Source: a virus. Taken from it: DNA of 64,000 bases. The translations under genes and the position numbers were made by a program. Below, piece by piece: positions 6,691 to 62,534 of the stretch (position 1 is the first letter of the stretch; each line of letters starts with the position of its first letter). The notes beneath the pieces were generated by a model. It searched no databases, was not told the DNA's origin, and was given only the letters and a program-made list of their open reading frames with translations. The stretch covers positions 1 to 64,000 of IMG/VR virus record IMGVR_UViG_3300044858_004955. One strand, written 5' to 3'.

Positions 6691-6749
6691 GCCGGATCGT
6701 GGAAACCAGAACCAGCCGGCCCCGGACGGCGAAACGCGAGGAGACGACG

Positions 6750-13933: not shown

Positions 13934-14682
13934 AGTTCGATCGGTTGGTTGATGATCAGTCGCGGATCGCACCATATCTCCCCTCCCAGTTGTCGTATTC
14001 GGTCGCATAGACCGACGAATCCCTCGTTCTCCATCCGGGCGCCGCATCGCAGGTACTCACCTTTGATGAGCGCGACGCTCCCCACCGTGTCGAGGCGGAA
14101 CGGCTCCGTCGAATAGCACGGCGAGTACGGTGGCACCGAAGTGAATCGCACGCCATCGTGCCTATACCCCCATGTGTCGTAGAAGAACGGCAGCGGCGCC
14201 GGGCCTCCGTTCAGGTGCAACTGGAGGTGCTCGCCGAGCCGGAGCGCTCCGTCGCACAGGTCGAGCGAGCGGTCCATGCCGACGCTCGCGAGACACGGCC
14301 ACCCGCCGGCGACGGCACGCTTCTCGTCGCCATCGAGGACGTCGGCCAGCCGCTGCACCACGTCCGGCGGCGAGATCAGGTCGCTCTCGTGGATGAGCAC
14401 ACGCCCGGCCCCGTGCATGAGCGCGGCGTTGATCGCGACGTCACCCACGAGCGAGCAGGCGAGCAGGCGGTCGGCCGGTTTGTCCCAAGGCTCGACGATC
14501 AAAATCACCGGCACCGGCGAGTTTTCGATCACGAACCGCAGCATCTTCTCGGTGGCGTCGTTCGTCGGCCGGACGACCCATACCCAGCCGGACACGCCGG
14601 CCTTGTCCAAGAGGTGGCTGGTCCGCCGGACGAAATGCTTCCCGACGTCGCCCATCCACGCAGAGATGCCGATGGTCGTCAT
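13912..14682 (-). CDS. Glycosyltransferase-like protein, 256 aa
   Basis: Starts at 14682 (MTTIGISAWMGDVGKHFVRR). GT2-like features: an N-terminal nucleotide-binding-type fold with WVWVVRPTNDATEKMLRF, VLIHESDLISPPDVV in place of the usual DxD strand (E-S-D), and a C-terminal region with CDRIRQLGGEIWCDPRL. Coupled to the aminotransferase upstream by a four-base overlap. Family fit is by fold pattern only, and donor and acceptor are unknown. Confidence 0.55.
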   Translation of the reverse strand: MTTIGISAWMGDVGKHFVRRTSHLLDKAGVSGWVWVVRPTNDATEKMLRFVIENSPVPVILIVEPWDKPADRLLACSLVGDVAINAALMHGAGRVLIHESDLISPPDVVQRLADVLDGDEKRAVAGGWPCLASVGMDRSLDLCDGALRLGEHLQLHLNGGPAPLPFFYDTWGYRHDGVRFTSVPPYSPCYSTEPFRLDTVGSVALIKGEYLRCGARMENEGFVGLCDRIRQLGGEIWCDPRLIINQPIELWTFQNN

Positions 14683-15758
14683 GCCGAGCACCTCTCGAGC
14701 ACCTCGCACACGGTCTTCACGTCGTCCTTCGTGAGGCCGCAGTGCGTCGGCAGGACGATGCCCTCACCGTGGAGCCGGTGCGCCGCGCACCCGCCCACGG
14801 TGCGGAACGTCCTCATGTGGCGGTGCGTGTTCATCGGCGGGAACGCGGGCCGCGTCTCGACTCCGGCCTGAGCCATCCGGCGGATCACGGCGGCGGCCGG
14901 CATCCCGCTCTTCCGCACCGCGTATGCCCAGTACCCGCTCGTGTCGTTCGGGTGCGTCGCCTGCGGCACGACGCCGGCCGGCAGGAACTCGCCGTACCAG
15001 CGGAAGAGCATCCTCCGCTGCAACAAAAACGAGTCCAGTTTCTTGAGTTGCTCGACCAGCACGGCGGCCTGCAACTCGGTCATCCGGTAGTTCGTGCCCG
15101 CCGCGTCATGCACGTACCGCTCGCGGGTCTGGGCCTGACCGGCCATGTGCCGGACCCGCTCCCCGTGCAGCGGATCGCGCCAGCCCACGGCCCCGCCTTC
15201 TCCGCAGGTCACGGTCTTCGAGCCGTAGAAGGAGTACGTCGTCATGTCGGAGACGGCTGGCACGCCGGAGCGAAGCGCCCCCAGACCCTCGGCGTTGTCC
15301 TCGATGAGGACGATGCGCCGGCCCGTCGCAAGGTAGTGGTCGTGCCGCCACTGCTCGAGCGACGGCGGCGGCGTGCCGTAGAGGTTGACCGTGATGACCG
15401 CCTTCGTCTTCGGCGTCACGGCGCCTGTCAGAAATCCCGGCTCGATCGTCCACATTCGGTCGTCGATGCCGACGAACACGGGCTTCGCGCCGCAGTACAG
15501 GACCGCGTTGGCCGTCGCCACGAAACTGGTCGCCGGCACGATCACCTCGTCGCCACGCCCCACGCCGGCTGCGAGGAGGGCTAGGTGGAGCGCGGCCGTA
15601 CCGCTCGACACGACGTGGCACGGCTGGCCGGTGATGGCCTCCATCGCGGCGTCGGCGGCATCGCACACTGGGCCGCGGGTCAGCCGGCCGGAGGCCAGCA
15701 CCGAGGCCACGGCGGCGGCCTCCTCCTGCCCGACGATGGCGGCGCCGAATGAGATCAC
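14679..15758 (-). CDS. DegT/DnrJ/EryC1 sugar aminotransferase, perosamine-synthase-like, 359 aa
   Basis: PLP-dependent sugar aminotransferase. SSGTAALHLALLAAGVGRGDEVIVP-type start, PLP-site aspartate in LIEDNAEGLGA (about 154) and Schiff-base lysine K181 in SFYGSKTVTCGEGG. The SFYGxKTxTxGEGG string is close to GDP-perosamine synthases, which aminate GDP-4-keto-6-deoxymannose, the product of the Gmd encoded at 32725. The GTG at 15758 overlaps the VRR-NUC stop. DegT members vary in substrate, so the perosamine call is moderate. Confidence 0.85.
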   Translation of the reverse strand: MISFGAAIVGQEEAAAVASVLASGRLTRGPVCDAADAAMEAITGQPCHVVSSGTAALHLALLAAGVGRGDEVIVPATSFVATANAVLYCGAKPVFVGIDDRMWTIEPGFLTGAVTPKTKAVITVNLYGTPPPSLEQWRHDHYLATGRRIVLIEDNAEGLGALRSGVPAVSDMTTYSFYGSKTVTCGEGGAVGWRDPLHGERVRHMAGQAQTRERYVHDAAGTNYRMTELQAAVLVEQLKKLDSFLLQRRMLFRWYGEFLPAGVVPQATHPNDTSGYWAYAVRKSGMPAAAVIRRMAQAGVETRPAFPPMNTHRHMRTFRTVGGCAAHRLHGEGIVLPTHCGLTKDDVKTVCEVLERCSA

Positions 15759-21164: not shown

Positions 21165-21248
21165 TCACTCCATGTATCGCAGGAGGCTCAGGTAGGTGGC
21201 GGCTCCTGCCGCCACGAGGATCAAGAAGACGTTCGCCCAGACGTCCAT
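21165..21248 (-). CDS. Tiny membrane protein, 27 aa
   Basis: MDVWANVFLILVAAGAATYL and a short tail: one transmembrane helix with almost nothing else. The ATG overlaps the csrA stop (ATGA), and the next gene starts four bases after its stop, which supports translation. Role unknown. Confidence 0.5.
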   Translation of the reverse strand: MDVWANVFLILVAAGAATYLSLLRYME

Positions 21249-21424
21249 CACGGCTTCTCCGCGACGGCGGGCTTCGGCGCGACCAACTCCTCGCGGAGGA
21301 CGGTCGTGTCCAGCGGGGCGATGACGCCGATGCGGACGCGGCCTTGCTCCACGCCGCGCACCTCGATGACGACGTCCTTGCCGATCAATATCCGCTCGCC
21401 AATTCGTCTGGTCAGGCACAGCAC
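21248..21424 (-). CDS. csrA: CsrA family RNA-binding regulator, 58 aa
   Basis: Carbon storage regulator homologue. LCLTRRIGERILIG is the signature first strand, VIEVRGVEQGRVRIGVIAP the central strands, and TTVLREELV carries R44, with L4 also kept. These are key RNA-contact residues in CsrA, which binds GGA motifs in mRNA leaders as a dimer. Starts with GTG after AAGGAGCCTCAA. The tail (APKPAVAEKP) is short. Could regulate phage or host mRNAs. GGA-rich leaders fill the left 9 kb of this genome. Confidence 0.9.
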   Translation of the reverse strand: MLCLTRRIGERILIGKDVVIEVRGVEQGRVRIGVIAPLDTTVLREELVAPKPAVAEKP

Positions 21425-30146: not shown

Positions 30147-31010
30147 ATGACTCACACGCTCATATCTGTACTCCACGATCTTTACGTGCCGCTCAGGTCG
30201 CTCTGCCCAAGGAGCGCCGAGAACTACGAGTTCACGATTCGTGCGTTCTCGGCGTTTCTTGGGCGAGAGGCGACTCTGGACGACCTCGACGAACTGACCG
30301 TCGCGAGGTACTTGACCAACCGTGCCAAGGAGCGTGCGATCGCCACGGCCGCGAAGGACCGCGCCCAACTCCGCGCACTCCACGAGTTCAGCGCGAGGCG
30401 GAAACTTTGCGACCACTGGCCCCAATACCCGCCGATCCGCGTGCCTGACCGCGTGCCGGAGGCGTGGTTCTCAGGCGAGATGCAGCGACTGCTTGACGCT
30501 GCTGGTCAGGAGAAGACGGTGCTTGACGGCATCCCCGGCGGCCTTTGGTGGCGGGCGCTCCTTCTTCTGGCCTACGACACGGCCGAGCGTGCGACTGCAC
30601 TGACGAGCCTCCGATGGCGTTCCGTCCGAGGCTCCTCAGTCCTCTTCGTGGCCGAGGACCGCAAGGGACGCCGCCGCGACATCCTCCGCGAGATCGGCGA
30701 GGACACTCTGGCGGCGCTTGAGGCGATTCGTGGAGAACGCGGGCAGGACGACCTCGTCTTCCCGTGGCCGCGGACGCGGACCTACCTCTGGCGGCGGCTC
30801 GAGATCATCCTCGAGCGTGCGGGCCTGCCGCATGGCCGGCGGGACAAGTTCCACCGCATCCGAAGGACGACGGCCTCCTACTACGAGGCCGCCGGCGGCT
30901 CGGCCCAGCGGCTCCTCGACCACTCCGACCCGGCGACGACGCGGAAGTACATCGACCCGCGGATCGTCAGGCCACAGGCAGCGCCGGAACTGATCCCGAG
31001 GGTGTCGTGA
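30147..31010 (+). CDS. Tyrosine recombinase (integrase), 287 aa
   Basis: The N-terminal core-binding SAM-like domain (residues 5-90) is followed by the catalytic domain with all expected residues: R148 in YDTAERATALTSLRW, K173 in EDRKGRRRD, H236 and R239 in FHRIRRTTASYYE, H259 in LLDHSDPATT and nucleophile Y268 in RKYIDPR. The size suits a phage integrase or XerC/D-like enzyme. It supports a temperate or plasmid-prophage lifestyle. Preceded by a leader of about 40 bases with no strong ribosome site (GTGAGGATGCAAC). Confidence 0.9.
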   Translation: MTHTLISVLHDLYVPLRSLCPRSAENYEFTIRAFSAFLGREATLDDLDELTVARYLTNRAKERAIATAAKDRAQLRALHEFSARRKLCDHWPQYPPIRVPDRVPEAWFSGEMQRLLDAAGQEKTVLDGIPGGLWWRALLLLAYDTAERATALTSLRWRSVRGSSVLFVAEDRKGRRRDILREIGEDTLAALEAIRGERGQDDLVFPWPRTRTYLWRRLEIILERAGLPHGRRDKFHRIRRTTASYYEAAGGSAQRLLDHSDPATTRKYIDPRIVRPQAAPELIPRVS

Positions 31011-31808: not shown

Positions 31809-32724
31809 TCAGACGACGCACCCACTCGTCGCCCGCCACCACGCCACGGTCTCAGCGATCCCGTCTCGCAGCGTGACCTGCGGCTCCCACACGAGCACCT
31901 CGCGTGCCCGCGAAGCATCGACCGCACGACGCGGCTGGCCGTCCGGCTTTGACGAGTCCCAGCGGGTCGTGCCGTGGTACTCGCACTCGCAGGCGATCAG
32001 TTCGGCCAAGTCTCGCATCGTCACCTCGCCGCCGCCTCCGAGGTTGACTGGCTCCGGCGTCTCAATGCGTTCGGCGGCACGAAGAATCCCTTCGGCCGCG
32101 TCGGCGACGTGGAGGAACTCACGACTGGCCGACCCGGTCCCCCAGAGCGTGACGTCGCCGGCCGAGCAGAAACGCCGGATCATGGCTGGGATGACGTGGC
32201 TGGAGGCCGGGTCGAAGTTGTCGCCGGGACCGTACAGATTCGTCGGGATCACGACTGACCCTGCCATGCCGTACTGGGCGTGGTACTGCTTCAGGAGTTC
32301 GTAGACGGCTCTCTTCGCCACGCCGTAGCCAGCGTTCGTTGCCTCCGGGTATCCGTTCCATAGGTCGGACTCCTTGAACGGCACGGGCGGTGAGAGCGGG
32401 TACGAGCAAACCGTCCCGACGATGACCGTGCGGCGGCACTCGTGCAGGCGGGCTGACTCGACGACGTTCAGGCCCATCGCGAGGTTCGCGTAGGTAAACC
32501 GCCCCGGCGTCCGCATATTGGCGCCGATGCCGCCGACCTCCGCGGCCAGATGCAAGACGACGTCCGGCCGGCAGGCGGCGAACAGCCTCGCCGTGGACCG
32601 CGGGTCGGTCAGGTCGCACACGCGACGCCGCGGCACGGTCACCTGCGTGCAGCCGCGCTCCTCGAGCAGCCGGCATACGACGCGGCCGAGGAACCCTGCC
32701 CCGCCGGTGACCAGCACGCGGCAG

Positions 32725-32747
<23 letters not shown>
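31809..32747 (-). CDS. fcl: GDP-L-fucose synthase-like epimerase/reductase, 312 aa
   Basis: Extended SDR: NAD(P)-binding VTGGAGFLG (residues 13-21), [20 protein letters not shown] characteristic of GDP-fucose synthase, catalytic serine in GTVCSYP and YGVAKRA with Tyr-x3-Lys, and [12 protein letters not shown] near the C-terminus. Converts GDP-4-keto-6-deoxymannose to GDP-fucose. Its gene overlaps the Gmd gene by 23 bases. The C-terminal third is rather short, so a related reductase activity (for example Rmd-like) is possible. Confidence 0.85.
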
Positions 32748-33705
<958 letters not shown>

Positions 33706-38652: not shown

Positions 38653-39204
38653 TTATTTCATTGTATCGTTTTGCAGTCTTGACCACGCAGCATCCACGCG
38701 GCCGGCGAGGACCGACAAATCCCCGTCGTTAAGCACCTCGTCGTCCACGAGGCTGGCCTCGATGCCACGCTCGCTCGAGTGCGACCCGGCAGAACCAGCC
38801 AATCCAGCCCCGGGCCGGACGACACGCCAGACGTACCCGCCGCGGGCGTGGATCGCCTCGGCCTCGTTGTCGAACCGGACATCCGTGATCACGGCGAGCG
38901 CCGTCTCGGAGTCCTCGATCCGCTTCATCGTCGCCATCACCCAGATTTCCGGGTGGATGGTCTCGCGCCCCCACTCCGTGCCGATGGTTTGGAGGAGCCG
39001 CCGCGGGCTGGCCGGCAGCCACGGCAGGTCGCGTTCCTTGTGCCGCCGGTCCTGCAACTCGGCGATCGACATCCCCGTGATCGCCGAGATCGCCGCGTAC
39101 AGCGGGTCCGCGAACCCGAAGATTCCGGCCCCATGCCGTGCCGCCAGCATCTCCGCGACCGTGTTTTTGCCGCACCCGGCGGCTCCGCAGAGGCCGATGA
39201 TCAT
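38653..39204 (-). CDS. Deoxynucleoside monophosphate kinase, 183 aa
   Basis: P-loop GLCGAAGCGKNTVAEMLA at the N-terminus, FGFADPLYAAISAITGM, RRLLQTIGTEWGRETIHPEI and ITDVRFDNEAEAIHA are the landmarks of phage T4 gene 1-type dNMP kinases. Phosphorylates dNMPs to supply nucleotides for phage replication. Its gene overlaps the metallophosphatase gene by four bases. Confidence 0.85.
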   Translation of the reverse strand: MIIGLCGAAGCGKNTVAEMLAARHGAGIFGFADPLYAAISAITGMSIAELQDRRHKERDLPWLPASPRRLLQTIGTEWGRETIHPEIWVMATMKRIEDSETALAVITDVRFDNEAEAIHARGGYVWRVVRPGAGLAGSAGSHSSERGIEASLVDDEVLNDGDLSVLAGRVDAAWSRLQNDTMK

Positions 39205-40373
39205 GGTTTCACCCCGGCGACGTGCATGGCCGTCAGGCCGCCTTCGGGCCTGTAGAGGAACGTCTCCATCGCCCGGCGGGCGCCGATGAAGCCGTGCTCA
39301 GAGTGCCAATCGTCAGTGGCCCCGACGCTGGGAGCCGTTCGGACGATGACTGACTCGATGGTCTCGATCGGCCGCTGCCACTCGGCTGCCTGCGAGTGGT
39401 AGTGGCCGGTGTGGTACTCGCGGTACGGGCACCTCGCCCAGTCGCCGGCAGCCTCAATCGCCATGATCTGCGGCAACTTCCGTTTCGCCCGGTGGCCGTG
39501 GGCGATGCCGAGCAGGTTGGCCCCGTGCGTGACGTACTGACGGCCGGTGAACTTCATGCTTACGGCGACGCGCTGGTCGTTTCGGAACCGCTCAAAAAGA
39601 ATGCGCTGGAACGCCCAAGTGAGCGTCTCGTCGTGGTTTCCGTTCACGACGTGGACGTCGGTCGGCGTCGTCGCGGCGGACTGCTCGACGATCGAAAGAA
39701 GTGCGTCGCTGCCAACCTCGATCATCTTCTGGAGCCGGCCGTCGCGTTCCAACTGCGTTCCGCTGGTGGTGGTCCCATGAGGCGAGTCGTAGTGAAAGAG
39801 GTCGCCGAGGTAGAAGATGCTCCTCCGAGCAGGCTTGTACTCGTTGCCGACGGCGATCAGTTCGTTCGACGTCTGCCGGATGACGCGGTCGGCGATGTCG
39901 AGATCGTAGTCACCGTGGCCGGTTGTCTTGCTCCACGCATACTTGCCGACATGGACGTCCGCCACGACGATGACCTGCCACAGTTCGCCCTTCGGCTTCT
40001 TGTGACGGCTCACCGGCCTCTGCTTGAGGCCGACGGCCCCCGCGATCATCGCCTCCACGACCTCGCGTGTCGTCGGCCCCGCCTTCGGCTTCAGCCGGAC
40101 GAAGACGCGGTGCAATTCCGTGACGGTCGTCCCGCCCTTTCCATCGCTTGACGCGCACTCCCATTTGGTGGCTTCAGATGCCGCCACTTCATACCTCTGT
40201 AAGTCAGCCTCGATATGCGCGAGCAGGTCTTCGACCGTCTTGATGCGGCGGCTCGTGCTGCGGGCCTCGAGCACGTCGCCCTCGCGCTTGGTCGTGACCT
40301 GCTCCGCGTCGGGGGCGGGTTCAGGCTGCGGCAGTTTGGCCGCCACCTTGGCGATCAAGTCCTCCTGAGCCAT
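39201..40373 (-). CDS. Calcineurin-like metallophosphoesterase, 390 aa
   Basis: Motifs in order: VVADVHVGKYAW (D-x-H), FYLGDLFHYDS (G-D-x), VNGNHDETLTW (GNH[DE]), GIAHGHRAKRK (HGH) and YHTGHYHSQ. These are the metal ligands of the binuclear phosphoesterase fold. The N-terminal 110 residues are a charged, partly helical extension. Could be a phosphatase or nuclease. Phages with similar genes carry them near nucleotide metabolism or terminase genes. Starts at ATG 40373, overlapping the gene upstream. Confidence 0.85.
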   Translation of the reverse strand: MAQEDLIAKVAAKLPQPEPAPDAEQVTTKREGDVLEARSTSRRIKTVEDLLAHIEADLQRYEVAASEATKWECASSDGKGGTTVTELHRVFVRLKPKAGPTTREVVEAMIAGAVGLKQRPVSRHKKPKGELWQVIVVADVHVGKYAWSKTTGHGDYDLDIADRVIRQTSNELIAVGNEYKPARRSIFYLGDLFHYDSPHGTTTSGTQLERDGRLQKMIEVGSDALLSIVEQSAATTPTDVHVVNGNHDETLTWAFQRILFERFRNDQRVAVSMKFTGRQYVTHGANLLGIAHGHRAKRKLPQIMAIEAAGDWARCPYREYHTGHYHSQAAEWQRPIETIESVIVRTAPSVGATDDWHSEHGFIGARRAMETFLYRPEGGLTAMHVAGVKP

Positions 40374-40615
40374 GCCTTCACTCCTTGCGGGCCGATGGTG
40401 ATGCCCAGTTCGCCAAGCGTCGCCGAGATCGCCCGGCACGCCGTGATCTCGCGCTTGCCGAACCGGCCCGCAAAGTACGCATCGCGGAGCGGCAGAACCT
40501 GCTCCGCCTGCTCTGGCGTGAGCCGCTGCCACCACGGCTTGACGTGCGGCGTCGTGTCCACGCGGGACGCGACTCGTTCGATGAGGTCATCCGCTGACAA
40601 CTGCTTCTCGTCCAT
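40355..40615 (-). CDS. Hypothetical helical protein, 86 aa
   Basis: ADDLIERVASRVDTTPHVKP, WWQRLTPEQAEQVLPLRDAY, then FGKREITACRAISATLGELG and GPQGVKAWLRR. The helical arrangement resembles a small DNA-binding protein, such as the HTH half of a terminase small subunit. Starts eight bases after the Rieske gene stop. Confidence 0.6.
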   Translation of the reverse strand: MDEKQLSADDLIERVASRVDTTPHVKPWWQRLTPEQAEQVLPLRDAYFAGRFGKREITACRAISATLGELGITIGPQGVKAWLRRT

Positions 40616-40623
40616 GCTGCACC

Positions 40624-41688
40624 TCACGAAAGACCGTCGCACGCCATCAGGAGTGCGCTGATGTGATGCCCGACACGCTCCTCGTCCTCTGACAGGATCG
40701 CTTCCACGCCCGACCCGGCGGCGTCGCAGGCGCCGGCGTGGACGCTCTCGCAGACCGCGGCGTCTTCGGCGAACACGGCCCGGTTGAAGTCCACGACCGA
40801 CTTGTTGAACACCTCGCGGCGTTCCGCCTGACCGGGCGAGAGTTCGCCGACCTTCGTCGCGTAGACCAGCGACGTGAACTCCGTTTCGCCGACGCCGGCC
40901 GGAGCGAAGAACTGGACTGATACGCTCATGCCTGCCGCGCTCGCGATCGTGCAGTGCGGGAAGACCAGTTGATGGACGTAGCCTGCCGGTTTGTACGGCC
41001 GCGAGGCGAACACGTCTTCCATCGATTCGAGCCACGCCGTCGTCTTCGCAGACAGGGGCGTCGACCACGACGAGTGCGGGCCGGCGAAGGAGAACTCGCC
41101 GCCGTTCGCCCCGAGTCGGTGGAACGTCTCCGGGTGGACGTGGCCGACGTGGTACGCCTCGAGCGTGTTCTCTACGGCGATCTTCCAGTTGCACCGCATC
41201 CAGATGCGGTTCGTGTCGAGTTTCTCGCCGCAGGCTTCCGTCATCGCGGCGATCGTCCCCCACGCTTCGCCGAGCCACGCCTCCAGTTCGATCGCCTTCG
41301 TGCGGCAGACGAACACGAGATTCCCGCACCGGGCCGTCTCGTACACGGCGAGGCCGTGTTCCGCGAGGTTCACGCCGTCGAAACTGGGCCGCTTCGGCAC
41401 GCGGCACGGCAGGCCGTCCGGCCCGAACTCCCAGCCGTGGTAGCCGCAGACAAGCGGGCCGGTGCCGCAGGGATTCGAGACCAGCCTATTGAGACGGTGC
41501 GGGCAGACGTTCAAGAACACCTTCAGTTCGCCGCCGACGTTCTGGACGATGACTTTCCCGCGGACGACGTAGTCGCCGTCTCCGGCTACCTCGTTTGCCA
41601 TGCAGACCGGCGTCCAGACGGAATTCGCGAACGCCGTCACCTCGCGTGCGTACTGCTCCTCGGAAACGTAGTAGGCGGCCGGAATCAT
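40624..41688 (-). CDS. Rieske non-heme iron oxygenase, 354 aa
   Basis: Rieske 2Fe-2S ligands C62 and H64 (NVCPHRLNRL) and C81 and H84 (VCGYHGWEFG). The catalytic mononuclear iron site lies in ENTLEAYHVGHVHPETFH (H180, H185), with NWKIAVEN before it. This matches the aromatic-ring or CntA/choline monooxygenase type oxygenase family. It would hydroxylate or oxidise a substrate, plausibly the acyl chain or sugar from the neighbouring genes. It needs an external reductase, not encoded nearby. ATGA overlap with the reductase gene. Confidence 0.9.
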   Translation of the reverse strand: MIPAAYYVSEEQYAREVTAFANSVWTPVCMANEVAGDGDYVVRGKVIVQNVGGELKVFLNVCPHRLNRLVSNPCGTGPLVCGYHGWEFGPDGLPCRVPKRPSFDGVNLAEHGLAVYETARCGNLVFVCRTKAIELEAWLGEAWGTIAAMTEACGEKLDTNRIWMRCNWKIAVENTLEAYHVGHVHPETFHRLGANGGEFSFAGPHSSWSTPLSAKTTAWLESMEDVFASRPYKPAGYVHQLVFPHCTIASAAGMSVSVQFFAPAGVGETEFTSLVYATKVGELSPGQAERREVFNKSVVDFNRAVFAEDAAVCESVHAGACDAAGSGVEAILSEDEERVGHHISALLMACDGLS

Positions 41689-42416
41689 CGTGCGGTCATG
41701 CCCCCGTCGATCGTGAGGACAGTCCCTGTCGTCCACTTCTGACGCAGGAGGTACTGGATCGCCTCGGCGACGTCCTCCGGCTCTCCGAGGCCGAGTAGGT
41801 GGTCGTCGACCACGGCCTGCCACTGCGTCGGAGACATCGTGTGCTCGAGCCGCTCCTGCATCGGCGTCCTGACGACGCCGGGGGCGACGGCGTTGACCCG
41901 GATGCTGGATGAGGCTAGTTCGACCGCCAGAGCCTTGGTCAGCCCGAGCACCGCGGCCTTCGACGCTGCGTAGGCGCTCGCGGCTGCCTGCCCGACGATC
42001 CCTGCCACGCTCGCGACGAACACGATCGCGTCGGACCCGCCGGCCCGCACGGCCGGCTGCCGGAACGCTTTCGCGACGTGCCACGCCGTGTGGTAGTTCG
42101 CCGCGATCATCTCGTCCGCTTTGGCGTGCGTCTGGTATCGCAGCGGGATCAGGGAGTGGATGCCGGCGGCGTGGACGACGCCATCGAACTTCCCGTGGAC
42201 CGCGGCGATGTCAGCGAGCACGTCGTCGGTGCGGTCGCCAAGCGACACGAGGTCGATGCTCTTCCAGCCGTGGTTGCCGGCCGGCAGTGCGTCGTGGACT
42301 TCCCGCAGGCGGCCGTAGTCCCGGCCAAGCAGGTAGACGTCGTGGCCTCCGGCGGCCAAGAGCCTCGCCGCGGCGGCCCCGATGCCGCTGGAACCTCCGG
42401 TCACGAGGTATCTCAC
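41685..42416 (-). CDS. FabG-type ketoacyl reductase (SDR), 243 aa
   Basis: Short-chain reductase: YLVTGGSSGIGAAAARLL coenzyme site, NAG-type segment VVHAAGIHSL, catalytic S136 in VASVAG and Y149-x3-K153 in SAYAASKAAV, with C-terminal GGMTAR. Closest to 3-oxoacyl-ACP reductases. GTG start at 42416 overlapping the ketosynthase stop. The gene order ketosynthase, reductase, oxygenase is consistent with an acyl-thioester pathway. Confidence 0.85.
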   Translation of the reverse strand: MRYLVTGGSSGIGAAAARLLAAGGHDVYLLGRDYGRLREVHDALPAGNHGWKSIDLVSLGDRTDDVLADIAAVHGKFDGVVHAAGIHSLIPLRYQTHAKADEMIAANYHTAWHVAKAFRQPAVRAGGSDAIVFVASVAGIVGQAAASAYAASKAAVLGLTKALAVELASSSIRVNAVAPGVVRTPMQERLEHTMSPTQWQAVVDDHLLGLGEPEDVAEAIQYLLRQKWTTGTVLTIDGGMTAR

Positions 42417-43348
42417 TCGGCGACCTCCACGAGGTCGTGGAGCCTCGTCGTGGACAGGTCGGCGGCGACGGCGCAGTACGACCAGCCACCGCCGAATCCG
42501 GCCATGATGGTCCTCCCCTTGCCGCCGGTGGTCACGAGCGCCAGCGGGATCGACGCGCTCGACACGTTGCCGAAGTGCCGCACTATGCCGTCGATCCACT
42601 TCGCCTCCGGCACGCCGCATTTCTCGCGAAGGTGCCGGAGCATGAACTGGTTCGGTTGGTGCGGGACGATCTGGTCGACCGTGTCCATCGTCCAGCCGGC
42701 CGCCGCGAGCGACTCGGTGACCATCATCGGCACCGTCCGCATCGCAAACTCGAAGACCTCGGCGCCGTTCATTCTCAGGTGCGCCGTGTCGCCGTGGGCG
42801 AGCGACAGGTGCTCCGCTCCGCTCCCGTCGCTGCCGAAGGCGACGTGCATGGGCGGCGCGTCGTCGTCCCGCTCGAGGATCGTCGCGCTCACCGCGTCTC
42901 CGAATAGCGGCTCGGTCGCACGGTCGTTCGGCGAGACGACGGTCGACAGGCAGTCGCCGGCGACCAAGAGGACGCGAGGAACGCCTGCTGCGGCTAGGCC
43001 GGACGCCACGGCGAGGCCGTAGGTGTAGCCGGAGCAGCCTTGGTTCACGTCGAACGCAGCGCACGCCGTGCCGAGGTTGAGCCTGCCGTGCAGGACGTTG
43101 GCGACCGGCGGAATCCGCTGGTCCGGCGTCTGCGTGACGACGACGATCGCCTGCACCGCCCGTCCGAGCACCTCGCGGCACGCGGCCTCGGCCAAGTCGG
43201 CGAGCGAGAGTTTCTCGACGACCCTCCGCTCGCAGACGCCGGTGGCGGCCTCCAGTTTCGACGCCGCGGCCCCCCAGCGCGACTGATCTCGCACGGTCGA
43301 AGGCACGGCCACGGCGATGTCGCGGATCGCGACGCCTTGGATGCTCAT
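42413..43348 (-). CDS. Ketoacyl-ACP synthase III-like, 311 aa
   Basis: Thiolase-fold KAS III with the complete Cys-His-Asn triad: C105 in VNQGCSGYTYGL, H230 in QIVPHQPNQFM and N261 in RHFGNVSSASIP. VFGDAVSATILER-type region and C-terminal GFGGGWSY are also typical. Condenses an acyl-CoA with malonyl-ACP, or makes a small acyl unit on the adjacent ACP. Start at 43348 overlaps the ACP gene stop. The N-terminus is standard length. Confidence 0.9.
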   Translation of the reverse strand: MSIQGVAIRDIAVAVPSTVRDQSRWGAAASKLEAATGVCERRVVEKLSLADLAEAACREVLGRAVQAIVVVTQTPDQRIPPVANVLHGRLNLGTACAAFDVNQGCSGYTYGLAVASGLAAAGVPRVLLVAGDCLSTVVSPNDRATEPLFGDAVSATILERDDDAPPMHVAFGSDGSGAEHLSLAHGDTAHLRMNGAEVFEFAMRTVPMMVTESLAAAGWTMDTVDQIVPHQPNQFMLRHLREKCGVPEAKWIDGIVRHFGNVSSASIPLALVTTGGKGRTIMAGFGGGWSYCAVAADLSTTRLHDLVEVAE

Positions 43349-43563
43349 TGGATTCCCACGAGCGCGGCCAAGTCGCCGACCGTCCTCGCTTCCATGAGCC
43401 GTGCGGCGCTCACGATCACGCCGTACTTCTTGTCCGCCATAGCCATGAACCCCATCGCGCTCATGGAATCCCACCCCGCAAGGTGGTTCAGGTACATCTC
43501 CGGCTGGCTGGTGCCGGCCGACTGCTCGACCAGTTGGTCGAGCGCCTCGCAAAACTCGCTCAT
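43345..43563 (-). CDS. Acyl carrier protein, 72 aa
   Basis: Four-helix ACP: LNHLAGWDSMSAMGFMAMAD carries the phosphopantetheine serine S33 in a DSM (usually DSL) motif, preceded by a short helix (SEFCEALDQLVEQS) and followed by a C-terminal helix (RTVGDLAALVG). Dedicated ACPs of this size are often paired with a KAS III and acyltransferases. Overlaps both neighbours by four bases. Confidence 0.88.
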   Translation of the reverse strand: MSEFCEALDQLVEQSAGTSQPEMYLNHLAGWDSMSAMGFMAMADKKYGVIVSAARLMEARTVGDLAALVGIQ

Positions 43564-44171
43564 TGTGGTTTCCTGTAGATAACGGCCGCTGGGACTCCCA
43601 TCACGGTGGATCGCTCCGGCGCCTCGCGGACGACGACGCTGCCGCTGCCAACGATCGACCAGTCGCCGGCGTGGGCGTGCGGCAGGATGCTCGCGTGCGA
43701 GCCGACGAGCACGCCCTCGCCGAGGCTCGCGTGCCCGCAGAGATCGGCGTGGCTTGAGATCGAGCAGTAGTCGCCGGTCACGGTGTCGTGGCCGACGGTC
43801 GCGGCGCAGTTGACCGTCACGAACCGTCCGATAGATGATCCGACGCTGAGGATCGCGTGCGGGCAGATCACGCAGCCCTCGCCCATCGCGGCCGGCTCGG
43901 TGACGATCGCGGTCGGGTGGACGAGCGACCAGAATCGCGCCCCGCGGCTGCGGAGTCGCTCGCAGACAATCCGCTTGAGAGCCGGCTCGCCGATGCCGCA
44001 CAGGAAGACGTCACGCGGCGAAAACACGAGGTCGTCGGGCAGGATCGGCAGGCCGCACGCGACGCCCTCGGCCGTGTCGAGGAAGGCGTCCACGTCGATG
44101 CCGGCGTCCCGTGCCCAGCGGAGCACCTCGCGGCCGAAGCCGCCGGCGCCCACGATGTACGTGCTGCTCAC
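43560..44171 (-). CDS. NeuD/PglD-type sugar O/N-acyltransferase, 203 aa
   Basis: The N-terminal Rossmann-like part (STYIVGAGGFGREVLRWARD) is followed by a hexapeptide left-handed beta helix (GEGCVICPHAILSVGSSIGR, NCAATVGHDTVTGDYCSISS, VGSHASILPHA), the NeuD/PglD layout. It transfers acyl groups to the amine or hydroxyl of a nucleotide sugar or lipid-linked sugar. Its position upstream of an ACP gene suggests it could use an ACP-bound acyl donor. GTG start at 44171, overlapping the HExxH gene. Confidence 0.88.
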   Translation of the reverse strand: MSSTYIVGAGGFGREVLRWARDAGIDVDAFLDTAEGVACGLPILPDDLVFSPRDVFLCGIGEPALKRIVCERLRSRGARFWSLVHPTAIVTEPAAMGEGCVICPHAILSVGSSIGRFVTVNCAATVGHDTVTGDYCSISSHADLCGHASLGEGVLVGSHASILPHAHAGDWSIVGSGSVVVREAPERSTVMGVPAAVIYRKPQ

Positions 44172-44473
44172 GGCTGCTTGTCCTCTTGCAGGCGGTAGCC
44201 TAAGAACCAGAGGATTCTGCTCACGTCGCGTGCGCTCGCCGTGATCGTCTCCTCGCTCATCTGCGGAAAGCACACATGAAGCGCCTCGTGGATTTCGGTC
44301 TCCATGCGAGTCCGGCCCTTCAGTCGGGAGTCGATCAAGACCTTCCGCACCGACGGCTCACCGGGCTTGTTTGGGTCAGGCAGGTACGCCCACCCAGCGG
44401 CACGCCCGCGGAGGCGAGTGTAGCGCCACACCCAGCGGGCGCCTGCGATCAGGAAGTGATGCGTCGCCGGCAT
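44168..44473 (-). CDS. Small HExxH metalloprotein, 101 aa
   Basis: RMETEIHEALHVCFPQMSEE contains HEALH (H62, E63, H66), the zincin signature. The third ligand is not certain. It resembles minizincin phage proteins. First gene of the acyl-sugar operon, after the promoter at 44510-44481 and a short leader. Could be a protease or an unrelated metalloprotein. The N-terminus (FLIAGARWVWRYTRLRG) is hydrophobic but not a clear membrane helix. Confidence 0.6.
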   Translation of the reverse strand: MPATHHFLIAGARWVWRYTRLRGRAAGWAYLPDPNKPGEPSVRKVLIDSRLKGRTRMETEIHEALHVCFPQMSEETITASARDVSRILWFLGYRLQEDKQP

Positions 44474-44480
44474 GGCACAT

Positions 44481-44510
44481 AGTATCTTTGGGAGACCTAG
44501 CGCCGGTCAA
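44481..44510 (-). promoter_or_regulatory. Sigma70-like promoter TTGACC-N18-GATACT
   Basis: On the minus strand, TTGACC (44510-44505), an 18-base spacer and GATACT (44486-44481). It has the same -10 hexamer and spacing as the promoter at 629-658. CTAGG occurs in the spacer. It lies just before the HExxH gene and would drive the acyl-sugar operon. Only 67 bases separate the two flanking genes. Confidence 0.55.
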
Positions 44511-47689: not shown

Positions 47690-48148
47690 TCAGGCCGAAA
47701 ACGAGCGCGCCTTGTCCTTCAGCCCTTGGTTCGTCAGCGGACTTTCGTAGATGGCCCTAGCAAGCACAGCGACATCTTGCTCGGTGATGTCGTATGGAAG
47801 AATCGATTGCATCGCCCAATTCGCGGCCCGCTCGATGATCTTGGACGCGGCCTCGCCGATGGAATCAAGGGCAGCGGCACGCTTCTTGCAACCGCAGTCC
47901 TTGACTCCGGTGACGCGAGAAACCCACTCCGCGCTTACCCCCACGCTTGACAGCCCTTTCGCGATCGCTGACCCAATGTGAAGCGGAGGAACCTTTGCCC
48001 TGTTTTTTGCCCACGCCTCCAGATGCGCGCGAGCCATCTCCTCGATCGTCTGGCATTCTCGAAAATGCGGCAGTTTGCTTGCCACGAATCCGCAGCGATG
48101 ACATCGCGACCGATCGCCGTCAAACTCGCATAACATGACAACACTCAC
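47690..48148 (-). CDS. Zinc-ribbon-like protein, 152 aa
   Basis: GTG start at 48148 overlapping the 851-residue protein stop. FDGDRSRCHRCGFVASKLPH with FREC resembles a small zinc ribbon, and DCGCKKRAAALDSIG is a second Cys motif. The rest is helical. Possibly a tail accessory or nucleic-acid contact protein. Unassigned. Confidence 0.6.
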   Translation of the reverse strand: MSVVMLCEFDGDRSRCHRCGFVASKLPHFRECQTIEEMARAHLEAWAKNRAKVPPLHIGSAIAKGLSSVGVSAEWVSRVTGVKDCGCKKRAAALDSIGEAASKIIERAANWAMQSILPYDITEQDVAVLARAIYESPLTNQGLKDKARSFSA

Positions 48149-50700
48149 AGCGGGAAAGTCGGCGAACCAACCGTTGAGCGTCGCAGCGTGCGCGTTACCG
48201 AAAAGGCGCCGCAGGTGACCATGATCTCCATTTGGTCACCAGAGATCCACGTCTCTTTGGCAATTACGCTCACCAGACCGTCAGTGATAGTCACGCTTGC
48301 CAATTCGCTCCCTGACAATACAGTGACGTCTACTTCGCACCCGTCGCATGGAACTGTCGTAAGTTGCGGGATTTGATCACACGCCACTCCCCCACGCACA
48401 AACTGAGTCACAGCGCCTTTTGTAAAAATGACACTGAACTTCTGGCATTGCCCCACCACGAAGCGGGTCGTGATGAAGTATTGCGAATACTGCGCTCCGT
48501 AACTCGTTCCCGGCTGAAAATAGGACGGCAGCAGTACTAATAGCGTGCTGATGTCGCATGAGTTGTCTTGTAGCACTGATGACGTGCCAGTGAAAACTTG
48601 TGTGTCGCCGTAACGGTCAAAAAACAATGTTCTTGAAACCGCCAACGGTGAACCCGCTACATTTATCGTTCTGGAAACCACTTGCTCACCGATAAGATGC
48701 TCGTTAAATAAACTTACGTCCGCATTAAGGATGGCCCCGGGCGCAATCGGCTGCCCATCTGCATCTTGGCATGTGCGATTGAGTACGATTCCCTGCTTTG
48801 GAACCGTAGCGGAATCCCAATCGCTGCATATAAAGCGTTTTCTGCTGTAGTAGGGAACGGTGCCGTTTATATTTGTGCTCGTTATTGAACCGCTTGGCGC
48901 TGGCAGGTAGTCGACTACTTCTGGTTGCCTTCCGCTGCCGTTAGGGAAAGTTTTTACGACATACACCCTAGTGGCGTCCCCAGTCCACCCTAACTGCAAT
49001 TCTACTTCATGCGTTAGTTCTAGGTTTCCTTGGTCGCCGCACGGCACCGGAGCGCTTGCGTAGACGAGTACCGACACGTTCGGGCCGCTGTTTTGCAGGT
49101 TTGATCCACCACCGCAATCAATAAAACCACTTCTCCCAAATTGAAGGCCGCCTCCAGAAAACGCCAGCACACGCTTGCCGTTTTTAATTTGAAACCCCCG
49201 CCTGATCATTGCCACTGAGAAACTAAATGACTCTTGTAAAGGCTCGGCTTCGTAGTCGTCGCATGTTCCGTCAATAACACTCCACGACACCGAGGCTTCG
49301 ACGCTGACAGAAAAAAGCGGATCGGGGCCAACGCATGGGTCGCTGAGTGGTGGCGCCCCAGTATCCTCAAAAAACGACGTTCCAGCAGGACAGTCACCAA
49401 CGATTGCCCGCTCGTATAGCAGGTCGTTTTCGCTCCCATTGAGACTATACGTCCAGTCGCCTGCTTGGTTGTTTGGGCCTACACCAGTAAACGAGTGCCG
49501 ATACGCGCCGTGCTCCAGCCTCCACAGAAGCGTCCGACCGGGCCAAAAAGCAGCCGTTCCGACGCCGCCTCCGGCGATCAAGATTCCTCTCCGGTAATAA
49601 AACAATGGCCCCCAGCCGTCGCTGCAATCTCGAAAGGAATTATCGAAACCACCGCGTGCGCGCATGGTCAGGACGCTGTCGCCACACCACACAGGCTGAG
49701 TAGATGACCACGAGTTGGGGACGGTCACGTAGATTTGTTCTGGGTACAAGCCGATCGCGACGCCGACTCCGAAATCCTCGGTTTGGCAAAGCACGCTTGG
49801 CGGCATCAGGCTCAGGTCGGCCTGATATGGACCGCCGGTCTCGTTAACCGGCAAGATGGTGACTCGGATGTTGTAGTCGCCCGCCACGAAATCATTAGCC
49901 GTCTGCTCGTTCAAAACAACGCGGGGGGCAACGCCAAATCTGCTTCTTTGGCCGCCACCACCACAGATTTCTTGTTGCCCAAATTGCAGCGCCAGTGCGT
50001 GTTGGGTGATTGTGCCTCCACTTGTTTTGGAAACAGTCCATCCGGTCACGCTGCCGCCAGCAATCAGCGTCGCTTGGCGAACCGAGGAACCCAAAGGCAT
50101 CCACCGCTGAAGGCCCGCATACGAAAGCGAAACAGGCACCTGATGCGTTGCGGCGCTTGGGCCTTGGCTGACGCTGACGATCAGTTTTACTTGGCCGTAT
50201 TCGTCAGTTCCCAGCACTGTCTGAACGCCTGCTTCCTCGTCTGTTTGAACGCCGGTAACGCTCAACTGCACCTCCAAGAACCACGGAGGCCCGATGACAT
50301 CGTATATAGAAGTATCGGCGACGGCTGATCTGTTGAATCTCCACAACTGCGTCCTCGTTTGGCCGACTGGAGTTCTGGACGCGCCTGATGCCGACAGTGA
50401 TATCGCAATCGTTGCGTCGAAAGCAGCCGCTAGTCGGTAAACACTAAAACCTCCTGCTTCCCACATGGAGCCTTGGAGTGTGTTTGTGGAATCGCCCGTT
50501 GCGACGTTACAGTCCCACCCGTTGGGCGGAGACGTGTCCACTAACGCAACGCGCATGCAGCGGTTAAGGGTGACACGAAAAGCGCATGGGTCGCCTTGGC
50601 AACACGGCGAGCACGCTCCGAACAAGAAACCGAGCGGGTACATACTGGCGGCTATGAGCCAGATTGCACAGGTGACGAATGAGAGTGGATCGTCAATCAT
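48145..50700 (-). CDS. Large Cys-rich virion-type protein, 851 aa
   Basis: The N-terminus has a hydrophobic stretch (FVTCAIWLIAASMYPLGFLF) and a Cys cluster (GACSPCCQGDPC). The rest is beta-rich with many scattered Cys pairs. Position after the minor tail genes fits a tail-tip or host-interaction protein, perhaps with disulfides. No family recognised. Lower GC than the neighbouring tail genes suggests separate origin. Starts at ATG 50700 overlapping the upstream stop by four bases. Confidence 0.6.
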   Translation of the reverse strand: MIDDPLSFVTCAIWLIAASMYPLGFLFGACSPCCQGDPCAFRVTLNRCMRVALVDTSPPNGWDCNVATGDSTNTLQGSMWEAGGFSVYRLAAAFDATIAISLSASGASRTPVGQTRTQLWRFNRSAVADTSIYDVIGPPWFLEVQLSVTGVQTDEEAGVQTVLGTDEYGQVKLIVSVSQGPSAATHQVPVSLSYAGLQRWMPLGSSVRQATLIAGGSVTGWTVSKTSGGTITQHALALQFGQQEICGGGGQRSRFGVAPRVVLNEQTANDFVAGDYNIRVTILPVNETGGPYQADLSLMPPSVLCQTEDFGVGVAIGLYPEQIYVTVPNSWSSTQPVWCGDSVLTMRARGGFDNSFRDCSDGWGPLFYYRRGILIAGGGVGTAAFWPGRTLLWRLEHGAYRHSFTGVGPNNQAGDWTYSLNGSENDLLYERAIVGDCPAGTSFFEDTGAPPLSDPCVGPDPLFSVSVEASVSWSVIDGTCDDYEAEPLQESFSFSVAMIRRGFQIKNGKRVLAFSGGGLQFGRSGFIDCGGGSNLQNSGPNVSVLVYASAPVPCGDQGNLELTHEVELQLGWTGDATRVYVVKTFPNGSGRQPEVVDYLPAPSGSITSTNINGTVPYYSRKRFICSDWDSATVPKQGIVLNRTCQDADGQPIAPGAILNADVSLFNEHLIGEQVVSRTINVAGSPLAVSRTLFFDRYGDTQVFTGTSSVLQDNSCDISTLLVLLPSYFQPGTSYGAQYSQYFITTRFVVGQCQKFSVIFTKGAVTQFVRGGVACDQIPQLTTVPCDGCEVDVTVLSGSELASVTITDGLVSVIAKETWISGDQMEIMVTCGAFSVTRTLRRSTVGSPTFPL

Positions 50701-51047
50701 GTTGCCGTGCTGCACACTGCCGCAATGAGGAACCACGCCGTGCCTTCGCGTGCGATGGCGCAGTCGCCGATGCTCGCAGGCGCCGGGACTGCGGCGAACA
50801 GGTTCAACGCATTGACCGTATTCGTCGCCCCCGGCAGATACTTCAACTGCACATTCTTCACCGCCCCGATCGCCCACGACCCGGTGAATGTGCAAATCCG
50901 AAACACCTTCGCCGACCGCGGCTCCTCGCCCTCGAGGATGACCTGAGTGCGCCGGAAACCTGAGCCGATAGGTTCCCCATCGACGCGGTCGATGGTGCGT
51001 CGTATCTGCGAGAGCAGGTTCGGGCCAAGGAGGAAGCCTTCGGCCAT
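50697..51047 (-). CDS. Tail-tip-associated protein, 116 aa
   Basis: MAEGFLLGPNLLSQIRRTID, GSGFRRTQVILEGEEPRSAK with a strand-rich C-terminal half (CTFTGSWAIGAVKNVQLKYL). Small structural protein by position between two large tail genes. One base from the upstream gene. Family not recognised. Confidence 0.65.
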   Translation of the reverse strand: MAEGFLLGPNLLSQIRRTIDRVDGEPIGSGFRRTQVILEGEEPRSAKVFRICTFTGSWAIGAVKNVQLKYLPGATNTVNALNLFAAVPAPASIGDCAIAREGTAWFLIAAVCSTAT

Positions 51048-51048
51048 G

Positions 51049-52176
51049 TTAGGTGAGCCTCAAGCCGAAGTTGCTGAAGTCGTAATCGTCTTGGACTTGA
51101 TACGTGTAGACCAGAACTGGCGGAGTTCGAAAAGGAAATCGCGGAGTGCCATCTGGGTTCAGTGCAATCGGCAGGGCGCACGGACGCTGCGTCGGCTTTG
51201 CCCCCTCGCCGATCAAGATCATGCCGCGGACCTTACTGCCTTCGGTATTTTCGACTATTGAGATGTTGTCGGGCCACCCTTCGATCTCTGTGGCAATGCC
51301 GCCTTCGCTTTCCTTTTTCTTTAGCGCAAGCGAGCCTGCCCAGACGTCGCTTGCCGCGGCGGCTCCAATTGATCCGTAGTTCTTATTGATGATGTTTATG
51401 CCCTCGACAATCTGAGCATGATCCCATCCAAGTGCTACGGGGCTTGAGTTTGGATTGTTGTCAAGATGTATCAAATTGCGTTTGAACACAAACTCGTAGG
51501 ACGCTTTCCATCCTCTGTACAGAACGGACCCCCACTGCTCAAGTGCGGGCTGAGTAGACACACCGCGAAACATAACGGTATGCCTTGGGCACGTTAAAGT
51601 GCCTATAACAAACTCCGCGCTATTTATATATCCAACCAAGTTGCTGTGCCGTGTTGGATCGATTAGTTCAAATTGCTCAATAGTGATTGTGCTGATTGGG
51701 ACCAACTTCGTCACACCCTCGTACCTGTCGCCCGCTGGGTTCACAGGCGCGCGCCAATCTGGCCCGCCACCGATGACTTGATTCACTGCATCGCCGAACG
51801 GCTTCCACTCGAACGCCGGAGCCTCCGTGAGCGTCGTGGAGATCGACCAGTTCGCCGGCCGGATGTCCGGCGAGAACTGCCCCGGGTCTTGGCCGGCGTC
51901 ACCGCCTCCCGGGGTCGTCCGGTAGTTGAACGTCGCGACGATCACCATCCGGCTGTCGCCGTCGTACTGGGCCGAGTAGGACGCGCAGTAGAGGCCGGAC
52001 TCGGAAGGGTGCTCTTGGCCGATCTGGACGCCGCAGGTCGCGGAGACGTTGATGTACTCGCTGACGTCGGACTTGATGATCCTGAAGACCCGCGTCGTCG
52101 AGGAAGCGATCTGCCCCTCTTCCGACGAGAAGTCGTACTGGACGCCTGCGTAGACCTCTTTCGTCATCTTCGGCAT
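51049..52176 (-). CDS. Putative tail structural protein, 375 aa
   Basis: Begins KEVYAGVQYDFSSEEGQIAS and has strand-rich segments (SISTTLTEAPAFEWKPFGDA; YRGWKASYEFVFKRNLIHLD) and ENTEGSKVRGMILIGEGAKP. It lies directly downstream (transcription order) of the 122-residue tail protein and tape measure, where phages encode distal or minor tail proteins. Exact family unknown. Confidence 0.6.
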   Translation of the reverse strand: MPKMTKEVYAGVQYDFSSEEGQIASSTTRVFRIIKSDVSEYINVSATCGVQIGQEHPSESGLYCASYSAQYDGDSRMVIVATFNYRTTPGGGDAGQDPGQFSPDIRPANWSISTTLTEAPAFEWKPFGDAVNQVIGGGPDWRAPVNPAGDRYEGVTKLVPISTITIEQFELIDPTRHSNLVGYINSAEFVIGTLTCPRHTVMFRGVSTQPALEQWGSVLYRGWKASYEFVFKRNLIHLDNNPNSSPVALGWDHAQIVEGINIINKNYGSIGAAAASDVWAGSLALKKKESEGGIATEIEGWPDNISIVENTEGSKVRGMILIGEGAKPTQRPCALPIALNPDGTPRFPFRTPPVLVYTYQVQDDYDFSNFGLRLT

Positions 52177-61534: not shown

Positions 61535-61734
61535 TTCTTCGGCTTCCTGCGGTGCTGCTCGACGGCCCGCTCGAGCGGCGGATCGGTCGCGTCCGCGGTC
61601 TCAACCTCTGGCGGAGCCGGCCGGACCTCCTCGATCAGGCCGCGGGCGGCTAGGACACGGGCCATCCCGTCGCCCCAGTCGAACTCTTGGCCTTCCTTGT
61701 AGTTCGCGAAGTTCTTCTTGATCCGCACTCTCAT
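61531..61734 (-). CDS. Small head module protein, 67 aa
   Basis: MRVRIKKNFANYKEGQEFDW, GMARVLAARGLIEEVRPAPP, and a charged C-terminal tail (LERAVEQHRRKPKK). Looks like a small SH3-like strand protein. Its ATG overlaps the upstream stop. Short proteins of this shape are common before the gp6-like connector. Confidence 0.7.
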   Translation of the reverse strand: MRVRIKKNFANYKEGQEFDWGDGMARVLAARGLIEEVRPAPPEVETADATDPPLERAVEQHRRKPKK

Positions 61735-62459
61735 GCCACGAATCCCCACGCGCCCTCCGGCGCCTGCTGGCCGCTGTTCCAATACTCGGTCGTGTGCTGC
61801 TGAATCTTGCCGCCTTCGACCGTGCGGCTGGGCCATGTGATCATCAGTTCGGCGTGGCCGACGCTGACGTGCGTCGCGATGCCCAGCGTGTTGCCGGCGG
61901 ACTCCCACGCGCGCCAGAATGCGATGTCCTCATCGACGTGACCGCCGGTGAACTCGCCCTGCTCGTTTGCCTTCGCCAAGAACCACGGCTTGGGCGTCTT
62001 CTTGAGCGCCGAACACCGCAGGAACGTGCAGCCGAAGTGCGCCGTCGCGACCCGCTGGACGGGCTTCTTGAACCAGTCCTCGTCGACCGTCGTCTGCTGC
62101 TCCGGCGTGACGCCCGGCAGGGCGAACATCACCGCGTTCGCCTCCCGCTTCGTCTGGAGCGGAGCGATCGCGTCCACTCCCGAGTGCATCAGGAGTGCGA
62201 GCAGCGCTTCGATCGTCTTCGACGTGAAGATCGTGTCGTAGTCGAACGTCAGGATCACGTCGTGGTTGTCCACGACGGTTTCCATCGAACGCTGGAGGCA
62301 TTGCCCCCAAAACGCCCCGGTGTACTTGATCGGCGAGATGCGATGCGGCGCGAGAGCCTGCGCGACGCAGAAGAAGTTGTCCGTGAAGCCGAGGCGTGGC
62401 GTGCTCATCAGAGCAGCCACTTTGACCTCGGCTTCCACGTTGCCGATACGCAGTAGCAT
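61731..62459 (-). CDS. Glycosyltransferase (GT-A), inside head module, 242 aa
   Basis: VKVAALMSTPRLGFTDNFFC at the start, YTGAFWGQCLQRSMETVVDN, then ILTFDYDTIFTSKTIEALLA, where DYD is the metal-binding DxD. GGHVDEDIAFWRAWESAGN is the acceptor-side region typical of GT2-like enzymes. Its place between the MCP/decoration genes and connectors suggests capsid or tail glycosylation. ATG at 62459 follows GGAAGGAGCACTCC. Donor unknown. Confidence 0.75.
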   Translation of the reverse strand: MLLRIGNVEAEVKVAALMSTPRLGFTDNFFCVAQALAPHRISPIKYTGAFWGQCLQRSMETVVDNHDVILTFDYDTIFTSKTIEALLALLMHSGVDAIAPLQTKREANAVMFALPGVTPEQQTTVDEDWFKKPVQRVATAHFGCTFLRCSALKKTPKPWFLAKANEQGEFTGGHVDEDIAFWRAWESAGNTLGIATHVSVGHAELMITWPSRTVEGGKIQQHTTEYWNSGQQAPEGAWGFVA

Positions 62460-62534
62460 GGAGTGCTCCTTGGAAGGAGCGGGGGCGCCTCCATGCGCCT
62501 GCTCGGCCGTCATGGCCGTCCCGCTGTACGGGAA

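Follow-up and report, generated by a model that had tools for sequence, protein, structure and literature searches.

A five-gene cassette with its own acyl carrier protein and Rieske oxygenase in a tailed phage, and its probable role in sugar acylation

Six overlapping genes among phage tail genes

We analyzed 64,000 nucleotides (the window; positions 1 to 64,000 of the 70,320-base IMG/VR virus record IMGVR_UViG_3300044858_004955), focusing on a cassette of five genes that encode a left-handed beta-helix (LbH) acyltransferase, an acyl carrier protein (ACP), a ketosynthase of the 3-ketoacyl-ACP synthase III (KAS III) type, a short-chain dehydrogenase/reductase (SDR) and the alpha subunit of a Rieske non-heme iron oxygenase (Table 1). 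Because the rest of the record encodes a terminase, a portal protein and an HK97-type head protein (strong matches to phrog_9, phrog_12 and phrog_10, alongside a weak tape-measure match), we regard it as a tailed phage. The cassette forms the downstream part of a minus-strand run of six genes, surrounded by repeat-rich tail genes, in which every gene overlaps the next by four bases (GTGA or ATGA). A sequence-only reading of this DNA had described five overlapping pathway genes behind a single promoter. The overlaps were confirmed, and they are kept in two divergent relatives (L017 and L019); a promoter-like site also exists, but it precedes the sixth, upstream gene, which encodes a 101-amino-acid (aa) protein and overlaps the LbH gene.

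The LbH protein passed the NeuD/PglD sugar acyltransferase model TIGR03570 (NeuD; 195.5 bits, cut-off 160.8), and its best match among solved structures was VioB (7txp), followed by PerB (4ea7); its H128, which lies in a GHD motif, was invariant in 27 of 27 phage and bacterial copies. The ACP exceeded the PP-binding cut-off (32.6 against 20.8), and cut-offs were likewise passed by both ACP_syn_III domains of the KAS III, by the SDR (adh_short_C2, E 8e-41) and by the Rieske and Ring_hydroxyl_A domains of the oxygenase. The catalytic residues that had been called intact are indeed so: ACP S33, KAS III C105/H230/N261 and Rieske C62/H64/C81/H84 and H180/H185 were invariant in nine aligned phage copies, as were SDR Y149/K153 in eight, and a search of these other copies for catalytic substitutions found none. 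When bacterial copies of the KAS III were included, the Cys and His were kept in 65 of 65 sequences and the Asn in 64. Neither the KAS III nor the ACP passed the corresponding housekeeping model (158 bits against a cut-off of 292 for FabH, TIGR00747; 20 against 84 for AcpP, NF002147). These curated cut-offs rule out housekeeping FabH and AcpP copies, and because the scores fall so far below them the two proteins look like dedicated paralogues. A dedicated ACP, KAS III, SDR and NeuD-type acyltransferase, all with intact catalytic residues, share one operon, which is the combination that marks a vio-type cassette.

For the Rieske protein, AlphaFold2 yielded a pLDDT of 36 from a phage-only alignment and a pLDDT of 90.8 with a pTM of 0.90 from an alignment of 16 phage and bacterial cassette sequences. 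The best solved matches of the latter model were CntA and stachydrine demethylase; a search of a viral structure library gave two confident matches only, both nameless there. Beyond the residues noted earlier, we identified the third iron ligand, D309, and the bridging glutamate, E177, and the protein has the CxH...CxxH cluster, the two His and one Asp iron ligands, and the fold of a Rieske alpha subunit. All 16 copies keep, among others, C81, H84, W168, N174, E177, H180, H185 and D309 (one row of the alignment being a fragment without C62 and H64). Judged by these residues, the enzyme looks active. The carnitine monooxygenase CntA (PDB 6y9d), its best match by fold and by profile, shares the bridging Glu and the Rieske and His-His-Asp sites; in CntA the bridging E205, with which phage E177 aligns, is essential, and the substrate Tyr203 and a Cys206/Cys209 pair are further features of the enzyme (PMC7948474). 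The two proteins are 20% identical, however, and the Tyr and the Cys pair are replaced in the phage by Thr175, Ala178 and Val181. We rejected a CntA-type quaternary-ammonium oxygenase on the basis of these replacements, and by the same residues a quaternary amine appears an unlikely substrate.

No PHROGs family was matched by the ACP, KAS III or Rieske protein, and INPHARED held no near relative, with every match below 40% identity. Most of its KAS III matches came from contigs that carry no annotation and are assigned to Firmicutes phages; those Rieske matches that bear the names antA and benA look like catabolic DNA of bacteria in contigs classed as phage. The open-access literature likewise yielded no phage KAS III/ACP/Rieske set, in line with the earlier statement that no described set of this kind was known.

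Table 1. Positions of the genes and sites discussed, with the match or motif behind each name.
Feature	Position	Strand	Basis or remark
Promoter-like site	44481..44510	-	9/12 sigma-70 consensus matches, consensus only; precedes 101-aa gene
101-aa backbone protein, HEALH motif	44168..44473	-	Open reading frame; first of six overlapping genes, overlaps LbH gene
NeuD/PglD/PerB/VioB-type LbH acyltransferase	43560..44171	-	TIGR03570; GTG start
Dedicated ACP	43345..43563	-	PP-binding; S33 in GWDSM
KAS III-type ketosynthase	42413..43348	-	ACP_syn_III N and C domains; C105/H230/N261
FabG-like SDR ketoreductase	41685..42416	-	adh_short_C2; Y149/K153; GTG start
Rieske non-heme iron oxygenase alpha subunit	40624..41688	-	Rieske and Ring_hydroxyl_A; bridging Glu E177
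Short gene between Rieske and phosphoesterase-like genes	40355-40642		
Phosphoesterase-like backbone gene	39201..40373	-	Downstream marker of insertion site
Gmd, GDP-mannose 4,6-dehydratase	32725..33705	-	TIGR01472 (equivalog), 487.5 bits, cut-off 415
GDP-L-fucose-synthase-like epimerase/reductase (Fcl-like)	31809..32747	-	Best PDB matches GDP-L-fucose synthases; under NCBIfam cut-off
DegT aminotransferase	14679..15758	-	PF01041, E 2e-80
First gene after aminotransferase	13912-14709	-	No Pfam match
Second gene after aminotransferase, glycosyltransferase-2-like	13070-13933	-	Weak Glyco_tranf_2_4 match; overlaps preceding gene

Recurrence, insertion site and bacterial relatives

The cassette genes retrieved twelve other viral contigs, and the cassette recurs in 11 of them: eight at 93–98% identity (among them L007, which ends inside the Rieske gene) and three divergent (L017–L019), the twelfth, L081, ending inside the LbH gene. 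The divergent contigs conserve the gene order at identities of 67–68% for the LbH protein, 72% for the ACP, 62–64% for the KAS III, 65–66% for the SDR and 47% for the Rieske protein. No internal stops were seen in the cassette copies checked. Mean pairwise dN/dS of the cassette genes among the close copies was 0.046 to 0.135 (pairs that are not independent, because several contigs are near-copies of one another), and two neighboring backbone genes gave 0.037 and 0.073. The cassette is under purifying selection.

Some copies carry additional genes. Five contigs (L002, L003, L005, L006 and L007) have an insert of ~1.2 kb between the ACP and KAS III genes, which in L006 (6756-7990) contains genes for a Methyltransf_24 protein and for a LamG-like tail protein; in L017 and L019 a methyltransferase lies upstream of the gene run. 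Methyltransf_24 genes were thus found in L006, L017 and L019, and none was identified in the window. Also upstream of the cassette in L019 (2019-3632) is a gene for a 537-aa protein that combines a Stealth CR2-like part with a Glyco_transf_61 part.

The genes on either side are backbone genes shared by a large group of phages, all uncultured. Relatives of the 101-aa protein occur in 42 loci; the protein is conserved in many phages at 57–99% identity, including phages without the cassette. For the phosphoesterase-like gene we kept 80 of 164 matched stretches. In 40 cassette-free contigs with relatives of both genes the gap between the two matches was 217–311 bases in 38 and 727 bases in the other two (L095 and L096), compared with ~3.8 kb between the two genes in the window. 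Because both flanking genes sit so close together when the cassette is absent, they define a fixed insertion site, and the simplest reading is that the cassette was gained in this phage clade. A host search with the phosphoesterase found no match in 392 genomes of the phylum of locus L040 and one weak match (33%) in 388 genomes of the phylum of locus L025.

L096, from a sister phage, is the nearest cassette-free form, with a phosphoesterase 78%, a Gmd 89% and an Fcl 91% identical to those of the window. At the cassette site it carries a gene for a 144-aa GNAT acetyltransferase (6277-6708) that is joined to the 101-aa gene by a GTGA overlap, as the LbH gene is in the window; an identical GNAT copy occupies the same site in L095. 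The sugar genes of L096 are again Gmd, Fcl and a DegT aminotransferase. A lone acyltransferase in place of the whole cassette, in a phage whose sugar genes match, offers by analogy the best clue to what the cassette may do.

To look for bacterial relatives we used the phage KAS III alignment as the query against 84,980 species, one genome per species, and obtained 43 loci. The stretches fetched around these contained an SDR in 24 cases, an LbH protein in 18, an ACP in 17, a DegT in 13 and a Rieske protein in 12, and seven loci (L020, L023, L026, L028, L029, L033 and L038) join KAS III, SDR, LbH and Rieske. In such sets (from Undibacterium, Janthinobacterium, Duganella, Massilia, Acidobacteriaceae and Stenotrophobium) the four families stand side by side as in the phage, some with an ACP or DegT gene, and the Rieske ligands and bridging Glu are invariant; unlike the phage cassette, they often include two KAS III genes and lie in chromosomal, flagellin or polysaccharide contexts. 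The Janthinobacterium set (L023) adjoins genes for flagellin and an FlhA-like protein, the Acidobacteriaceae set (L033) lies within a Wzz/Wzx/Wzy-like cluster with a DegT gene, and a Bacteroidetes locus (L051) has KAS III, SDR, LbH, DegT, Gmd and Fcl in one place (several of the gene names at these three loci were assigned by eye). By family membership, the cassette is of a bacterial type and not a phage invention; what is new is its phage-borne form. In the open-access literature we found no account of the Rieske member of the bacterial sets, nor of any flagellin island with a Rieske gene.

Close bacterial homologues of the operon had been proposed as a sign of recent host acquisition, and homologous sets do exist in flagellin and polysaccharide loci. 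Their proteins, however, share only about 24–43% identity with those of the phage, and the phage KAS III and phage LbH sequences each form a single fully supported clade (the Rieske tree did not resolve phage monophyly, which appeared in 40% of bootstraps); for these reasons the data give no support to a recent acquisition from any of the genomes sampled. The occurrence of homologous sets in bacteria is also what one would expect if the contig had recently captured host DNA, or had been mis-assembled, so that the cassette was bacterial cargo without a phage role. The cassette nevertheless recurs in 11 other viral contigs with the same backbone genes on either side, with dN/dS far below 1 and no bacterial homologue above 43% identity. 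Given recurrence, selection, clades and low bacterial identity together, we rejected this explanation as extremely improbable.

A proposed route to an acylated amino sugar

Elsewhere in the window are the sugar genes that the sequence-only reading had pointed to. Gmd scored above the TIGR01472 cut-off, and the nearest solved relative of the DegT aminotransferase is GDP-perosamine synthase (3bn1/3dr7, E 1e-53), as had been suggested. Both genes occur in the window, as they do in each of the four long contigs with the cassette (L009, L019, L004 and L008), compared with one Gmd (that of L096) and four DegT genes among 15 cassette-free contigs; these are counts and not a test, because the contigs are fragmentary and related. 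The aminotransferase and the same two following genes recur in three related contigs. No VioT-sized glycosyltransferase was recognized among the window genes. One gene away from the major head protein gene, a weakly glycosyltransferase-like gene (61731-62513) is a candidate virion glycosyltransferase.

The closest parallel is the viosamine island of Pseudomonas syringae (vioA, vioM, vioT, vioS, vioB, vioR and acp), which modifies flagellin with N-(3-hydroxybutyryl)-2-O-methyl-viosamine, a sugar that a vioR mutant lacks, and which has a homologous counterpart in the glycosylation island of P. aeruginosa PAK (PMC3927599). Four of the five cassette genes correspond one to one with vioS, vioB, vioR and acp, and in both systems a sugar aminotransferase accompanies a dedicated ACP, KAS III, SDR and NeuD-type acyltransferase; VioM has a counterpart in kind in the methyltransferases in or near the cassettes of L006, L017 and L019. 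The island differs in having no Rieske enzyme among its seven genes, and in using dTDP-viosamine and a bacterial flagellin target, where the phage probably uses a GDP sugar and shows no VioT-like large transferase. The perosamine pathway of Caulobacter (PerA/PerB; PDB 3dr4 and 4ea7) has relatives of the phage DegT and LbH N-acyltransferase and resembles the phage in its probable GDP-perosamine route, but PerB takes its acetyl group from CoA, and the pathway has no ACP line and no oxygenase. In principle the closest viral precedent is Mimivirus, whose 2-O-methyl-N-acetyl-viosamine pathway serves the virion surface (PMC10117803) and is, like that proposed for the phage, a virus-encoded pathway to an N-acylated 4-amino-4,6-dideoxysugar; Mimivirus is, however, a eukaryotic giant virus that adds acetyl only, and an ACP, KAS III or Rieske step was not found in the text of PMC10117803.

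We put the probability that the cassette is a phage-borne vio-type acyl-sugar module at about 65%. The earlier proposal of an acyl-ACP pathway to a deoxy- or aminodeoxy-sugar survives in that the intact cassette fits N-acylation of an amino-deoxysugar, although sets of these five genes are not confined to phages. From the genes, their families, catalytic residues, conservation, insertion site and co-occurrence we infer all of the chemistry, and the target, set out here. A host phosphopantetheinyl transferase would convert the ACP to its holo form and a host malonyl transferase would load it with malonate. The KAS III would then condense an acyl-CoA (most simply acetyl-CoA) with malonyl-ACP to give 3-oxoacyl-ACP, which the SDR would reduce to 3-hydroxyacyl-ACP (most simply the 3-hydroxybutyryl form). 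The LbH enzyme would move the acyl group onto the amino group of a nucleotide-bound 4-amino-4,6-dideoxysugar; the likeliest acceptor is GDP-perosamine, which Gmd and the DegT aminotransferase of the phage itself would supply. The Rieske oxygenase, supplied by a host reductase, might at some stage oxidize either the acyl chain or the sugar that bears it. Finally, phage or host glycosyltransferases would set the sugar on a glycan, for which a virion tail or head protein is slightly likelier than host polysaccharide. Taken separately, N-acylation of an amino sugar is the step we consider likely; opinion could fall either way on perosamine as the acceptor, a C4 hydroxyacyl group is an even bet as the acyl unit, and the case for the virion as the target is evenly poised. 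The module reading is further supported by the bacterial sets near flagellin (L023), in a polysaccharide cluster with DegT (L033), and with Gmd and Fcl (L051).

Several points weigh against it. Cassette and sugar genes are not obligatorily linked, since Gmd, Fcl and DegT are all present in the cassette-free L096, and in the window Gmd and DegT lie 7–26 kb from the operon, outside it. The top NCBIfam matches of the DegT protein are LegC and PseC, both under cut-off. Gene linkage is what suggests the ACP as acyl donor for the LbH enzyme, which could instead take acyl-CoA. We saw no Rieske reductase gene, and made no search aimed at a linked one; the oxidation step stays putative. Product and enzyme activities are predicted from genes.

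The same acylated sugar might instead decorate host lipopolysaccharide, capsule or flagellin during infection or in lysogeny, excluding rival phages or altering adsorption. This is the main competing explanation, and although every bacterial relative that we examined lies in a flagellin or surface-polysaccharide locus, and an integrase-like gene (30147-31010, named by eye) would permit lysogeny, we think it rather unlikely: a crude hydropathy scan of the window turned up no multi-pass flippase or polymerase candidate, the cassette sits amid tail genes and overlaps a gene of the phage backbone, and close to the capsid gene there is one that resembles a glycosyltransferase gene. Less probable still is that the product of the ACP line is a small molecule, free or lipid-like, such as a signal or a fatty-acid-derived metabolite, with the LbH enzyme acting on a non-sugar substrate. 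KAS III, ACP, SDR and oxygenase enzymes are known in such pathways, where many of the KAS III relatives in the PDB also belong, but the LbH protein passes a curated cut-off for NeuD/PglD sugar acetyltransferases, sugar aminotransferase genes accompany the bacterial sets, and L096 exchanges the cassette for a GNAT gene.

In its most specific form, the acyl-sugar module would use a self-contained ACP/KAS III/SDR/Rieske line to produce an oxygenated, short-chain N-acyl perosamine and place it on the phage's own tail or head proteins, while relatives swap acyl-donor systems (cassette, GNAT or nothing) at one site as a surface-chemistry switch; we offer this full combination as a speculative picture that is unlikely to hold in every part. 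Genes for gmd, fcl and perosamine synthase are already known from viral sequences (PMC8226683). If the module reading is true, the chemistry that phages make for themselves extends from nucleotide sugars to a dedicated acyl-carrier line and an oxygenase, and suggests that the acyl groups on glycans of the phage or its host can be exchanged. Because the set is compact, and because the Rieske-containing bacterial form is undescribed in the literature we found, the phage copy is a convenient system for studying the function of the Rieske enzyme.

Other features of the window

The 101-aa protein upstream of the cassette matches no Pfam family, and with its HEALH motif it is possibly a small metallopeptidase. 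In a tail-gene region, GC content drops to 0.54–0.58 (48001-52000), compared with ~0.65 elsewhere, which hints at recent exchange of this stretch. A trypsin-like serine protease gene lies at 19561-20298 (Pfam Trypsin, E 3e-13), and at 21248-21424 is a gene for a 58-aa CsrA-like protein, read by eye, that may be a phage-borne global regulator.

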